From Pseudonocardia ammonioxydans (GTDB taxonomy: Bacteria > Actinomycetota > Actinomycetes > Mycobacteriales > Pseudonocardiaceae), in contig NZ_FOUY01000018.1 in NCBI RefSeq assembly GCF_900115005.1, positions 62,001-126,000 of the forward strand: a stretch of DNA of 64,000 bases. The letters run 5' to 3'. The notes beneath the pieces were generated by a model. The model saw only the letters and a program-made list of their open reading frames with translations, was not told the origin of the DNA and searched no databases. Of the stretch, positions 55,994 through 63,431 are shown in pieces. The first letter of the stretch is position 1, and the number at the start of each line of letters is the position of its first letter. The position numbers were made by a program, and so were the translations under genes.

Positions 55994-56415
55994 TCACGCC
56001 GCGCCGGTGGCCCGCTCACGCAGCGGTGCCTTCAGCACTTTCCCGGTCGCGTTGCGTGGCAGCTCATCGAGCAGCACGACGTCGGTGGGGGCCTTGTAGC
56101 GGGCCAGGCGTTCCGCGCAGAACTCGAGCAGGGACACCGGGTCGAGGTCGGTGCCGGCGGCGGGGACGACGAACGCGACCTCGCTCTCGCCCCACCGCGG
56201 ATGCGGGGCCCCGACGACCGCGGCCTGGGACACCGCCGGATGCTCGTGCAAGGCGTTCTCCACCTCGGCCGGATAGACGTTCTCGCCGCCGGAGATGTAC
56301 ATGTCCTTCCAGCGGTCGACCAGGGTCAGGAACCCGTCGTCGTCGATCGTCGCGGCGTCGCCGGTCCGGAGCCACCCGTCCGCGGTGAGGGCGGCCGCCG
56401 TCCTCGTACCGCACC
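55994..56415 (-). pseudogene. C-terminal fragment of an AMP-dependent acyl-CoA synthetase (FadD-like)
   Basis: About 137 codons encode the C-terminal subdomain of an ANL ligase: LTADGWLRTGDAATIDDDGF, DRWKDMYISGGENVYPAEVE, PHPRWGESEVAFV and the catalytic-Lys motif LPRNATGKVLK. Everything N-terminal to TADGWLRTGD is missing. Similarity stops near 56415, beyond which the base composition changes. The adenylate-forming domain is not found elsewhere in the window, so this is a dead remnant. Confidence 0.82.
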
Positions 56416-56521
56416 GCATGGTCGATATGCCGTGTTCCGCGACATCGCCGGCAACCGGTGGGATCTGATCACCCCGGCAGTGGATAGAGTCCGCAGCTCC
56501 TCGTGAAGCTAAAGGTGGGAC

Positions 56522-57181
56522 ATGAGCGCACACCCAGAAGCCGGCACCACCAATTGGGATGCCGAGACTCGCATGTCCTACGACACGGTTGCGGACAGCT
56601 ACGCCGACCAAGTACGACACGCCCTTGCAGAGCAGCCCTACTTGAGCGGCGCACTGGCGTTGTTCGTGGACAGCGTGCGGCGGAGCGGCGGACCAGTTGC
56701 GGACATGGGGTGCGGGCCTGGCCAGATCACGGCCCACCTGAACGAGCTCGGCATAGACTCCTTCGGCGTGGATCTCTCTCCGCAGATGATCGACGTAGCT
56801 CGCCGTGACCATCCTGGCCTGCGCTTCGAGGTGGGCTCTATCACCGCCCCAGAGCTGCCCGATGCGTCGGTGGGAGGGCTCATCGCGTGGCAGTCGCTGA
56901 TCCACATGCCCGATGAGGACGTCCGGGTAGCGCTCGAGCACTTCCGCCGGGTGCTGCGCCCCGGCGGACCGGTGCAGCTCCTGTTCCACGCCGGTAACGA
57001 CTCCTGGGTGAAGACGCAGGGTTACGGCGGCCACCCGATGAACGTGCCCGTCTACCGCCGCCAACCCCACCTCGTCGCCGGCTGGCTGCGCGAAGCTGGG
57101 TTCGAGGTCGAAGCGCACATGGTCCTGAATCCAGACAGCGAGTTCCCGCAGGCGCTCCTGTTCGCCCGTCGAGCGGCATGA
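56522..57181 (+). CDS. class I SAM-dependent methyltransferase
   Basis: A 219-aa methyltransferase. Motif I is VADMGCGPGQITAHLNELG at about residues 58-76, GVDLSPQMIDVARRDHPGLRF is motif II region, and VLRPGGPVQLLFH is motif post-III. N-terminal YDTVADSYADQV is common in small-molecule methyltransferases. Codon choice is less GC-biased than its neighbours (ACA, TCT, ATA, CTT, GTA appear), and it sits beside a truncated ligase, both hinting at acquisition by transfer. GGTGGGACATG gives a ribosome site close to ATG. Confidence 0.87.
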   Translation: MSAHPEAGTTNWDAETRMSYDTVADSYADQVRHALAEQPYLSGALALFVDSVRRSGGPVADMGCGPGQITAHLNELGIDSFGVDLSPQMIDVARRDHPGLRFEVGSITAPELPDASVGGLIAWQSLIHMPDEDVRVALEHFRRVLRPGGPVQLLFHAGNDSWVKTQGYGGHPMNVPVYRRQPHLVAGWLREAGFEVEAHMVLNPDSEFPQALLFARRAA

Positions 57182-57627
57182 GCTCACGCCCGTCCCTGCT
57201 AGCAGCTTCAGACGCCGGCAGCGGTCCGCCGTCAGCCGCTCGGCGGCGTCGTCCAGCAGCTGCTGATCGACACTCGGGGCGGGGTCAAGCGCGGTAACCG
57301 AAGCTGTCGGAAGCTCAAGAAGCGCCGGAGCTTCGCGGCGAGTCCCTGGCCGCGGCCACCATGGGGTTCGTGAACCCAAGGGTCGAGGTAGCCGGGTCAT
57401 ACGACCCGCAACCTTCGGTTCGAGCCGTCAGACCCTTCAGAACTGCTGGACTCCAGAACTTTCCGGTGTCCGCTCCGCGTGGTGATCGATCCACGAGACG
57501 ACCTCGCGGTCGTGAGCCGGGGGATGGGTCACAGGGTGCCTCCTCGGCGCCGCCTCGACGACAGCCGCGACGACGGCGTCGGGCTGCAGCTCGGAGGGTA
57601 GTACCGGCGGACGGCTGATGAGCCGGG
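57182..57627. other. 446-bp degraded region without an intact gene
   Basis: Two protein-like stretches are open on the minus strand: TALDPAPSVDQQLLDDAAERL (about 57225-57290) and LPSELQPDAVVAAVVEAAP continuing to a stop at 57437. Neither has a start or recognised family. A small GGGTTC-GT-GAACCC hairpin lies near 57363. No tRNA or attachment core could be confirmed. Confidence 0.5.
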
Positions 57628-59740: not shown

Positions 59741-59842
59741 GGCGACCACCCTCCCTCGACGGTCCGGGTACCCGCCCCGACCCCGAGGCATCTCCGGGGC
59801 GACCCCGAGGCGACGGCCCCGGCGGCGGGGCATCGTGGTGCC

Positions 59843-60055
59843 ATGAGGATCGCATTGTTGGTGTTGGCGGGAATCGGCGCGATCGTGGTGCTCACCGGTG
59901 TGGTGCTGCCGGTGCTGGGCTGGCTGATCGGGTCACTGGCCTGGGTGGCCGCGGGCGCCCTGCTGATCGGCGGTGGAATCTGGGCCTACCGGCGGCTGTC
60001 CGGTTCGCAGACGCCGTCGCTGGGGTCCGGACCGAACGGCCGTCAGCTGCCCTGA
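59843..60055 (+). CDS. small two-helix membrane protein (70 aa)
   Basis: MRIALLVLAGIGAIVVLTGVVLPVL and WLIGSLAWVAAGALLIGGGIWAYRR are two membrane helices with a Gly-rich turn; the 20-residue tail is polar. No family assigned. Divergent from the DUF488 gene and 53 bp upstream of the ABC-F gene, but separated from it by the long palindrome. Confidence 0.7.
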   Translation: MRIALLVLAGIGAIVVLTGVVLPVLGWLIGSLAWVAAGALLIGGGIWAYRRLSGSQTPSLGSGPNGRQLP

Positions 60056-60076
60056 CGCCCGTGAAATCCGGTCGCA

Positions 60077-60104
60077 CCGGACTATCGCAGCTGCGATAGT
60101 CCGG
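60077..60104. promoter_or_regulatory. perfect 28-bp palindrome upstream of the ABC-F-TetR operon
   Basis: CCGGACTATCGCAG (60077-60090) followed at once by its complement CTGCGATAGTCCGG (60091-60104), with no spacer. It ends 3 bp before the ABC-F ATG at 60108, an ideal TetR operator position. Confidence 0.75.
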
Positions 60105-60107
60105 AGT

Positions 60108-61736
60108 ATGGGCCATGTGGAGCTGCAGGACGTCGACCACGTCCTGCCCGACGGACGGGTGCTGCTCAGCGAGGTGTCCTTCCGCGCGGGGGAGGGCACG
60201 AAGACCGCGCTGATCGGGGCCAACGGAACCGGGAAGTCCACGCTGCTCGACCTGGTCGCCGGCGGGACCGAGCCGTGGTCGGGGACCGTGCGGCGCTCCG
60301 GCGGGCTCGGCGTCATGCCGCAGTTCCTCGGCGGGCGCACGGTGCGCGAGCTCGTGCTGGAGCTCTCGCCCGAGCGGCTGCGCGCGGCGGGCCGCCGGCT
60401 CGACGCGGCCGAGGACGCCCTGATCGAGTCGGACGGTGTGGCCGAGCAGCTGCGCTACGCCGAGGCGCTGACCGAGTACGGCGACGCCGGCGGCTACGAG
60501 GCGGAGGCGTCGTGGGACCGCTGCTGCCGGGCGGTCGTGGCGGTGCCCTACGAGCAGGTGCGCTTCCGCGACACCGACCGGCTCTCCGGCGGGCAGCAGA
60601 AGCGGCTCGCGCTGGAACTGCTGTTCGGCGGGCCGGACGAGGTGCTGCTGCTCGACGAGCCGGACAACTTCCTCGACGTCCCCGGCAAGGAGTGGCTCGA
60701 ACAGCGGATCCGGGACTCCGACAAGACCGTCCTGTTCGTCTCGCACGACCGGGAGCTGTTGCACCGCAGCGCGAACCGGGTCGTCACGATCGAGCTGCAC
60801 CCGGCCGGGAACACCGTCTGGACCCACGGGGGCGGCTTCGCGACCTATGACGACGCGCGGGCCGACCGGCTGGAGCGGCTCGAGGAACGACGCCGCCGGT
60901 GGGACGAGAGCCGGGTGCGCCTGGTCCGGCTGGTCCACGAGCTGAAGCAGAAGGCGTCGTACAACGACGGCATGGCCGGTCGCTACCAGGCGGCCCGGAC
61001 CCGGCTCGCGCGGTTCGACGCCGCGGGCCCACCGGAGGAGGTGCCGCGCCGGCCCCGGCTGCAGATGCGGCTCGGCGGCGGCCGGACCGGGCGACGGGTG
61101 CTGACCTGCACGCAGCTCGCGCTGGACGGGCTCACCGAGCCGTTCGACACCGAGGTGTTCTACGGCGAGCGGGTCGCCGTGCTCGGCGCGAACGGCACCG
61201 GCAAGTCGCACTTCCTGCGGCTGCTCGCGACCCTCGATCCGGACGGCGCCGACGGCGTGGAGCCGGTCGCGCACCACGGGACGGCCCGGCTCGGCGCGCG
61301 GGTGGTGCCGGGGTGGTTCGTGCAGACCCATCGCCATCCCGAGCTCACCGGCCGCGGCCTGGCCGAGCTGCTCGTGGCGGGCGGGCCGCGCCGCCGGGGG
61401 ATCGGGCCGGAGCAGGCGATGCGGGCGCTGGCCCGTTACGACCTGGCCGGAGCCGCGCACCGGGGGTTCGAGACGCTCTCCGGTGGCCAGCAGGCGCGTC
61501 TGCAGGTGCTGCTGCTGGAGCTGCGCGGCGCGACCCTGCTGCTGCTCGACGAGCCCACCGACAACCTCGACCCGTACTCGGCCGACGTGCTGCAGGAGGC
61601 GGTCGAGGCGTTCGACGGCACGATCCTCACCGTCACCCACGACCGCTGGCTGGCCCGGTCGTTCGACCGCTTCCTGGTCTTCCACGGCGACGGCCGGGTG
61701 TCCGAGTCGGACCGTCCGGTGTGGAGCGAGCGGTGA
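60108..61736 (+). CDS. ABC-F family ATP-binding protein
   Basis: A 542-aa twin-ATPase ABC-F protein: Walker A GANGTGKST, signature LSGGQQKRLAL, Walker B VLLLDEPDNFLD (DN instead of TN), then linker, second Walker A GANGTGKSH, signature LSGGQQARLQV, LLLLDEPTDNLDPYS. The Thr/Ser-to-His change after GK in the second Walker A and the DEPDNF/DEPTDN loops set it apart from the protein at 115. Likely ribosome-associated, possibly antibiotic protection. Controlled by the TetR gene coupled to its 3' end. Confidence 0.9.
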   Translation: MGHVELQDVDHVLPDGRVLLSEVSFRAGEGTKTALIGANGTGKSTLLDLVAGGTEPWSGTVRRSGGLGVMPQFLGGRTVRELVLELSPERLRAAGRRLDAAEDALIESDGVAEQLRYAEALTEYGDAGGYEAEASWDRCCRAVVAVPYEQVRFRDTDRLSGGQQKRLALELLFGGPDEVLLLDEPDNFLDVPGKEWLEQRIRDSDKTVLFVSHDRELLHRSANRVVTIELHPAGNTVWTHGGGFATYDDARADRLERLEERRRRWDESRVRLVRLVHELKQKASYNDGMAGRYQAARTRLARFDAAGPPEEVPRRPRLQMRLGGGRTGRRVLTCTQLALDGLTEPFDTEVFYGERVAVLGANGTGKSHFLRLLATLDPDGADGVEPVAHHGTARLGARVVPGWFVQTHRHPELTGRGLAELLVAGGPRRRGIGPEQAMRALARYDLAGAAHRGFETLSGGQQARLQVLLLELRGATLLLLDEPTDNLDPYSADVLQEAVEAFDGTILTVTHDRWLARSFDRFLVFHGDGRVSESDRPVWSER

Positions 61737-62320
61737 GCAGGGTGCCGGCCGGGGACGCCCGTCCTCGGATCCTGGAGGCGGTGTTCGCCCTGGTCCGCCG
61801 CGACGGGGTGGCCGCGGTGTCGCAGCGCCGGGTGGGTGCCGAGTCCGGCATCAACGTCGGCTCGGTGCGGCATCACTTCCCGACCCGGGAGTCGATGATG
61901 ATCGCCGCCGCGGACGAGGTCGGGCGCCGCATGGAGCGCAGGCTCGCCGGCTGCCCGCAGCCGGTGCCCGGCGACCGGGACGCGGCGGTCGCGGCGCTGG
62001 AGGCGGTGTGCCGCGCGTTGATCCCGATCGGCGACCGGGGCCGCGACGAGCTCGTCGTGCTGCAGGAGTTCCTGGTCGCGGCACGGCTGAGCGAGACCTA
62101 CCGGCCCCTCGCCGGCCGGATGGGGGCCGACCTGCGCAGCGTGCTGCGGGCCGCGCTGACCCCGCTGGTGGCCGACGACGCGGCCCTCGACGTGGAGGTG
62201 GAGCTGCTGGTGGCGGTGATCGCCGGACTCTCGGCCGAGCTCGTCCAGCCGCACGGGATGGCGCCGGGCACCGATCCCGCGGAGGTCGTCGGTGTCCACC
62301 TGCGACGGCTCGCGGGGTGA
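61733..62320 (+). CDS. TetR-family regulator
   Basis: A 195-aa TetR protein: helix-turn-helix at about residues 10-55 (RILEAVFALVRRDGVAAVSQRRVGAESGINVGSVRHHFPTRESMM), then a helical ligand domain. GTG overlaps the ABC-F stop by 4 bp, so repressor and ABC-F protein are made together. The 28-bp palindrome before the operon is its probable site, giving autoregulated inducible expression. Confidence 0.88.
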   Translation: MSRVPAGDARPRILEAVFALVRRDGVAAVSQRRVGAESGINVGSVRHHFPTRESMMIAAADEVGRRMERRLAGCPQPVPGDRDAAVAALEAVCRALIPIGDRGRDELVVLQEFLVAARLSETYRPLAGRMGADLRSVLRAALTPLVADDAALDVEVELLVAVIAGLSAELVQPHGMAPGTDPAEVVGVHLRRLAG

Positions 62321-62478
62321 GCGGGGCCGCGACACCCACCGACATGCGGCTCAGCGCGAATTGTCGATCATTCGGCGACGCTGGTCTGCATCTCGGCGGG
62401 TGTCCGGGCTCCGGCGATGAGTGTCGCCGTCGTCGCCGGTCGGTCTCCCTGTAGCCCACCCACCGCAAGGAGACCACC

Positions 62479-63057
62479 ATGAGCGTCACCTACACCGTCG
62501 ACGTCTTCTCCAGCCTCGACGGCTTCGGCACGGCGGGCGGCGACTGGACCGGCTACTGGGGCAAGCAGGGCCCCGAGCTGCTCGAGCACCGCCTCCGGAT
62601 CTACCGCCAGGAGCAACGGATGGTCTTCGGGGCCAACACCTATCGCGCGTTCACGCAGATGCTCGCCTCGAGCACCGAGGAGTCCGAGGTCCATGACCCC
62701 TGGGTCGCCCGGATGATCAGCCTGCCGGCGACCGTGGTGTCGAGAACGCTGCACGAACCCCTCGACCGGCCGAACGCGACCCTGGCGCGGGGGGACGCCG
62801 TCGACGTCGTCGCCCGGCTCAAGGAGGAGTCCACGGTGCCGTTGCGCTCGCACGGCAGCCTGTCGGTGAACCGGGCGCTGATGGCCGCCGGCCTGGTCGA
62901 CCGGGTCCAGGTGACGATCTTCCCGGCGATCACCGGCCGGACCGGGCAGGATCCGATCTTCCGGGGTGGCGACGACTTCGACCTCGAGCTGCTCGAGAGC
63001 CGCACGCTCGACGGCCGCACCCAGGAGCTCGTCTACCGGCCCACCCTGCACGGGTGA
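62479..63057 (+). CDS. RibD C-terminal/dihydrofolate-reductase-like protein
   Basis: A 192-aa DHFR-fold protein: VDVFSSLDGFGTAGGDWTGYWGKQG at the N-terminus, MVFGANTYRAF (cofactor strand), and LRSHGSLSVNRALMAAGLVDRVQVTIFPAITG, typical of the stand-alone RibD_C group. Predicted NADPH-dependent reductase of unknown substrate, cytosolic. AAGGAG precedes ATG. The 158 bp upstream hold nothing recognised. Confidence 0.88.
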   Translation: MSVTYTVDVFSSLDGFGTAGGDWTGYWGKQGPELLEHRLRIYRQEQRMVFGANTYRAFTQMLASSTEESEVHDPWVARMISLPATVVSRTLHEPLDRPNATLARGDAVDVVARLKEESTVPLRSHGSLSVNRALMAAGLVDRVQVTIFPAITGRTGQDPIFRGGDDFDLELLESRTLDGRTQELVYRPTLHG

Positions 63058-63306: not shown

Positions 63307-63431
63307 CGGGTCCTCCCGATCGGATGGATGACGGAGAAACGGCGATCGGCACAGACCGTGCCGTTAGGAGAAATCATGCACGCCGCGGCGGGGCGCGTCA
63401 ACGGCACGGCCCGTGCCGGTACGCTGCCTGC

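Follow-up and report, generated by a model that had tools for sequence, protein, structure and literature searches.

Operon structure and the palindromic site

The question raised by this locus is whether a TetR-family regulator gene controls both itself and the ABC-F ATPase gene preceding it through the palindrome in front of them. The locus lies near the end of the window, i.e. the whole 64-kb stretch of Pseudonocardia ammonioxydans DNA analyzed here. The answer, considered quite probable, is that the two genes make up a single autoregulated operon, the leaderless promoter of which would be repressed by the TetR, released by a ligand and accompanied by a WhiB7-like box.

The ABC-F gene is located on the forward strand at 60108–61736, with an ATG at 60108, 542 amino acids and a start that is leaderless by prediction. 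The TetR gene (61733–62320, forward strand, 195 amino acids) starts with a GTG at 61733, and the genes overlap, the GTG and the ABC-F stop sharing 4 bp. The palindrome (60077–60104, no strand assigned) is perfect and 28 bp long. Its 14-nt arms, CCGGACTATCGCAG and CTGCGATAGTCCGG, are 100% complementary with 0 nt in between, and a gap of 3 bp (60105–60107) separates it from the ABC-F ATG. The first-pass annotation had described a spacer-free 28-bp palindrome ending 3 bp upstream of the ABC-F start and a TetR gene coupled downstream, and all this was confirmed.

The palindrome was the only perfect spacer-free one with arms of at least 12 nt in the window. In 100 first-order Markov shuffles the chance per window was 0.05 for arms of at least 12 nt and 0.01 for arms of at least 14 nt, and shorter perfect palindromes (arms of at least 8 nt) were somewhat enriched (12 against 5.6 expected from shuffles). 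Inside the palindrome lies the conserved operator core ACTATCGCAGCTGCGATAGT (60081–60100). When this 20-bp core was searched for with up to three mismatches in the source genome (7.36 Mb, 167 contigs), it was found in one place, and the backwards control also gave one match, so the weight of the core comes from its exact match.

Conservation of the putative operator and co-occurrence with TetR

The initial set of ABC-F orthologues was gathered irrespective of promoters and included 128 distinct loci, the duplicates L038, L040, L045 and L118 and loci below 400 bits having been left out and ten further duplicates removed later. A TetR-HMM match was present in 18 of the 128 loci, of which ten were operon-like with the ABC-F and eight were not. 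All ten operon-like loci had TATCRCANNTGYGATA, with two mismatches at most, in front of the operon's first gene. Five of them have the order ABC-F then TetR and five TetR then ABC-F (four of the latter Saccharopolyspora). The eight loci with a non-operon-like TetR match had no site within two mismatches anywhere in the locus.

In the complete set of 151 distinct loci, TATCRCA-NN-TGYGATA with at most two mismatches was present just upstream of the first gene in 13/13 loci whose operon also includes a related TetR, ten of these loci having come from ABC-F similarity alone, one (L190) from the TetR profile search and two (L189 and L194, the latter a near-copy of L042) from the operator pattern itself, and the consensus having been derived partly from the same loci on which it was counted. 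It was absent from the remaining 138/138 ABC-F loci, where the search extended up to 70 nt from the ABC-F start; the closest candidate there had four mismatches. Two of the unpaired loci, L012 (at −332) and L065 (at −1188), had stray two-mismatch sites far from promoters. The operator preceded the first gene in both gene orders; the TetR-first promoters were searched near the TetR HMM start, and their distances may be overestimated by as much as 9 nt. The GATA of the right half-site was kept in all 13 operators.

The TetR profile search, which was blind to the operator, detected three loci besides the window: L190 (site with one mismatch), L191 (exact) and L192 (one mismatch, read by eye). The site stands before the TetR in L191 and L192. 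The pairing is rare, as the profile passed 1e-45 in only 4/394 class genomes. A third search used the 17-bp pattern TATCRCANNTGYGATAG, which was found in 14 places in 12 of the 297 family genomes, the backwards control giving 0. Eleven of these sites lie directly upstream of a related ABC-F or TetR gene: four before an ABC-F, two before a TetR followed by an ABC-F, and five before a TetR without a detected ABC-F, in one of which the TetR match spans residues 6–80 only. The twelfth lies before a TetR remnant (by eye) followed by an MFS gene. Of the last two, L188 stands before an MFS gene only, and L187 has neither a TetR nor an ABC-F adjoining.

The length of 28 bp was rejected as the functional unit, since conservation spans only about 16–20 bp: the conserved operator unit is the 16-bp TATCRCANNTGYGATA, extending to 20 bp in the closest relative. 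In a relative with 83% identity only the central 20 bp of the palindrome are retained, and in L119 the outer 4 bp of both arms are not kept. The palindromic site at the TetR's own operon promoter is thus conserved together with the TetR gene (13/13 vs 0/138), in both gene orders. The palindrome is strongly supported as the putative operator of the coupled TetR, and so is the autoregulation by this TetR proposed in the first-pass annotation.

The operator also persists beside broken or truncated TetR genes (L186, L183 and L025); in L025 it is kept with one mismatch though the TetR frame is only about 78 amino acids long. In another family, the same operator fronts a TetR–MFS pair (L191), and the TetR regulator module is, on the basis of this pair, used with different resistance-type genes.

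Evolution of the pairing

On the tree of the ABC-F sequences (151 rows; a quick tree with 46 of its 148 inner branches starred), the TetR pairing needs six changes, five of which are forced by supported branches. The operator changes along with the TetR in 5/5 independent pairs (sign test p-value 0.0625, the lowest that five pairs can give, so that 0.05 could never be reached). The nearest TetR-less relative, L009 (81%), is without the palindrome and retains GAAATCCGGTCGC.

Saccharopolyspora oryzae (L043) has the six initial codons of a TetR gene directly upstream of the ABC-F start and in frame with it. The rest of the TetR was not found and only the right half-site of the operator is left, as if a deletion of the TetR had been followed by decay of the operator.

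The window and L119 have a TATCGCA site together with the TetR HTH residues Q31/R33, while nine other paired TetRs (alignment A3) have L/K at the corresponding positions and sites with an A replacing the G of TATCGCA. A change of specificity is a plausible explanation for this pattern, and it may have been a single event.

The promoter

WblC-activated promoters consist, according to the available text of PMC7157823, of GAAAWY, 3 bp, TKGMNN, 16–19 bp and TANNNT, with the transcription start 7–8 bp further. The window has GAAATC-CGG-TCGCAC-17 bp-GATAGT-7 nt-ATG on the forward strand. GAAATC (60063–60068) fits the published GAAAWY and lies 3 bp upstream of the putative −35 hexamer TCGCAC (60072–60077), which is followed, after a spacer of 17 bp, by the putative −10 hexamer GATAGT (60095–60100) inside the right half-site of the operator. 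The −35 hexamer differs from TKGMNN in one of its four specified bases, and the −10 hexamer differs from TANNNT likewise in one specified base. The promoter may work like a WblC promoter, yet it is not classed as one. A scan for the sigma-70 consensus, which does not cover promoters of the WblC-like type, found no promoter at 59800–62600.

The spacing from the −10 to the start codon puts the predicted transcription start at the ATG, and the ABC-F transcript is for this reason predicted to be leaderless. With a leaderless transcript, ribosome-mediated attenuation based on a leader would be impossible.

The same arrangement was found in orthologous upstream regions (123 regions of 100 nt, the five TetR-first loci left out). 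There 23 of the 26 GAAAWY occurrences were 44–47 nt upstream of the start codon, and 46 of the 66 [TG]ANANT hexamers began 12–14 nt upstream of it; GA-type −10 hexamers were common. The strict WblC-type architecture was present in 18/123 regions against 0.005 expected from base shuffles, counted with a pattern that was written after the sequences were seen. Among the 13 operator promoters, GAAAWY at WblC spacing was present in three by the strict and in five by the relaxed pattern, and the promoters of L017, L025, L027, L189 and L190 had no strict GAAAWY box. The box is present at that position in the window, in L119 and in the TetR-less L009. The WhiB7 layer would thus be lineage-specific at best.

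The source genome has 15 WhiB-family matches, two of which (L151 and L153) carry an AT-hook-like RPRGRPRK after the Wbl domain, and a gene for a WhiB7-type protein carrying an AT-hook is thus present. The leader of L151 includes a GC-rich inverted repeat before a T-run, resembling an attenuator or terminator (by eye). The position of the operator inside a WblC/WhiB7-like promoter suggests two inputs, activation by ribosome stress and repression released by a ligand.

The ABC-F and TetR proteins

The ABC-F protein has two Pfam ABC_tran stretches, and its relatives in the PDB are EttA, YbiT, Uup and PoxtA. The AlphaFold2 model (23 sequences, pLDDT 90) has a two-helix linker (helices 247–285 and 287–306), and the Foldseek matches of the model included EttA, PoxtA and YbiT, with EttA and PoxtA among the top. 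Two tandem ABC domains joined by a helical linker were thus found with Pfam and the model, and the lack of a transmembrane domain was read from the same results. The ABC-F fold given in the first-pass annotation is supported by these results.

DEPTNHLD is a hallmark of ABC-F proteins. It was found in 0/151 orthologues, which instead have DEPDN[FHYL]LD (148/151) and DEPTDNLD (149/151), and in 146/151 the second P-loop GKS continues with H (GKSH). Both ABC domains of the window protein contain LLLDEP, and LSGGQ is present in 150/151 orthologues. With Walker A/B, the signature and the catalytic glutamates in place, the ATPase motifs seem intact, and the deviations look like the mark of a subfamily: the protein belongs to a divergent ABC-F subfamily characterized by DEPDN and GKSH. 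The two motifs had been pointed out as atypical in the first-pass annotation; they are present, and as oddities of this one protein they were rejected because they are subfamily-wide.

Ribosome protection inducible by drugs, also proposed in the first-pass annotation, may be the function of the ABC-F. The protein missed the cut-offs of the NCBIfam ribosomal-protection ABC-F models (NF000355, 220/380 bits; NF000171, 188.5/800). Its presence was patchy, covering 24/62 genomes of the same genus, 64/120 of the family and 240/394 of the class (the last with a match threshold of E ≤ 1e-120). Relatives were also detected in seven plasmid records, four of them annotated as 'ATP-binding cassette domain-containing protein', two without a listed feature and one unannotated.

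The TetR protein consists, by Pfam, of a TetR_N HTH (25.7 bits, cut-off 24) and a helical ligand domain (TetR_C_6, 37.9 bits, cut-off 27). Its AlphaFold2 model has nine helices (pLDDT 92), and the fold matches include the multidrug-binding EbrR. The ligand of this TetR need not be a ribosome inhibitor.

Other features of the window

A second ABC-F gene is located at 223–1785 of the window (forward strand, match region 34% identical), and an aconitase gene lies 8.8 kb from it, not from the ABC-F gene at 60108–61736. The gene ocrA lies near acn. The region of 223–1785 is a candidate for an OcrA-type neighbourhood, and orthology of the 60108–61736 ABC-F with OcrA is, judged by neighbourhood alone, unlikely.

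At 63347–63418, two inverted-repeat arms of 19 nt, 89% complementary and 34 nt apart, are each palindromic by eye (CGGCACNGNCCGTGCCG type). They lie just upstream of a TetR-like frame (by eye) continuing beyond the end of the window, an arrangement suggestive of another TetR served by tandem operators. At 55997–57400 (reverse strand), only an AMP-binding C-terminal domain is recognizable, with a SAM methyltransferase gene at 56522–57181 on the opposite strand across it. Judged from these domains, the region is a remnant of an acyl-CoA-synthetase-type gene.

Proposed mechanism and alternatives

In the mechanism proposed here, a TetR dimer on TATCGCAGCTGCGATA would cover the −10 and the spacer of the leaderless promoter and block the polymerase, keeping both the ABC-F and tetR off. 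The TetR would be released when its ligand domain binds a small molecule, which is probably an antibiotic directed at translation or some other natural product, and the ABC-F made from the freed promoter would act on the ribosome. WhiB7, made upon ribosome inhibition, would raise the promoter, and full expression would probably need both the release of TetR and WhiB7. More tentatively, one promoter may here read two signals, translation stress through WhiB7 and a particular compound through TetR, the ABC-F being made only if the cause of the stress is the right one. The WhiB7 promoter would then be the older element, with the operator having grown around its −10 and disappearing when the TetR is lost.

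It is quite possible, short of probable, that TetR autorepression acts alone, with the GAAATC box a relic or a chance occurrence and WhiB7 uninvolved. This would agree with the few operator promoters having the box at WblC spacing by the strict pattern, with the five lacking a strict box, and with the departures of the −35 and −10 from the WblC consensus. The position of the box shared by the window, L119 and the TetR-less L009 speaks against it, as does the excess of the strict architecture among the orthologues over the shuffles. Very improbable, by comparison, is an RNA hairpin, acting as an attenuator or a mask of the start site in a readthrough transcript from the small upstream frame 59843–60055. 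A fully self-complementary palindrome adjoining the start codon could form one, but the letters are conserved beyond what pairing needs: the arms are unmatched in five of the 13 operators, all of which keep GATA. Furthermore, the site tracks the TetR gene, fronting the TetR instead of the ABC-F when the TetR comes first, and the predicted start site leaves the palindrome outside the RNA. The unmatched arms and the tracking of TetR led to the rejection of the hairpin as the main reading.

The alternative concerning the product is that the ABC-F is a housekeeping, EttA-like translation factor and that the TetR senses a non-antibiotic. EttA is among the best sequence and fold matches, the resistance-family cut-offs failed, and the model has an inserted helical segment (about residues 89–144) and a short-tipped linker, features that we take to recall EttA-type proteins. 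The patchy presence of the gene makes this explanation unlikely, and the TetR–MFS pair of L191, with its TetR and operator of the same kind, is similarly at odds with it. In the available text of PMC6723617, variable presence within a genus is read as pointing to a resistance ABC-F.

Relation to known systems

The induction routes described for resistance ABC-Fs in the sources available are the ribosome itself, by attenuation, and WblC/WhiB7. In the parts of PMC8546547 and PMC12421871 available, LmrC, TiaA and Are5sc (ARE5) of Streptomyces are antibiotic-induced ABC-Fs, are5sc belonging to the WblC regulon, and attenuation by a 5' leader is shown for LmrC and proposed for TiaA and Are5sc; lmrC, vgaA, msrD and vmlR have leader-based attenuators. 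They are actinobacterial ABC-Fs (LmrC, TiaA and Are5sc) like the one studied here, for which a leader, unlike in these cases, is not predicted and a TetR operator would replace or supplement attenuation. Also OcrA/Rv1473, MAB_2736c, MAB_2355c and MAB_1846 are actinobacterial ABC-Fs, acting on ribosomes in mycobacteria. Rv1473 is WhiB7-regulated according to the title of a reference cited in the mycobacterial papers, and in contrast to the present locus no TetR operator is described for these four in the available text (PMC9159947, PMC12633451, PMC13001253). Of the Actinobacteria-specific ABC-F subfamilies AAF1–6, AAF1–5 are predicted resistance factors in the part of PMC6723617 available; the present ABC-F, likewise actinobacterial, is likened to them by description only.

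Resistance-type genes under TetR control are likewise on record. According to the text available, efflux with a cognate TetR occurs in the simocyclinone, actinorhodin and landomycin systems (PMC8546547), and MmpS–MmpL and TetX are TetR-controlled in M. abscessus (PMC13001253). The present locus resembles them in having a resistance-type gene under a TetR, L191 being a TetR–MFS pair with the same operator. It differs in having a soluble ABC-F as the target in place of a pump or an enzyme that modifies the drug, and in that regulator and target are co-transcribed, from a transcript predicted to be leaderless.

Among the matches listed, the literature searched, subscription papers being outside the scope, gave no case of an ABC-F controlled by a TetR, and neither did the available text of PMC5343134, PMC8388888, PMC13001253 and PMC4807367. 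TetR-controlled pumps and other resistance genes, WblC/WhiB7-controlled ABC-Fs and attenuated ABC-Fs are already known, and for an ABC-F a cognate TetR operator is apparently new within the literature searched.

The ABC-F subfamily is common in actinomycetes and without a match to a characterized protein. If TetR-gated, the ABC-F operon would sense a compound directly, and the inducer would then point to the natural ligand of the subfamily. The conserved operator offers a way to get at the ligand of the TetR that can be put to the test at once.
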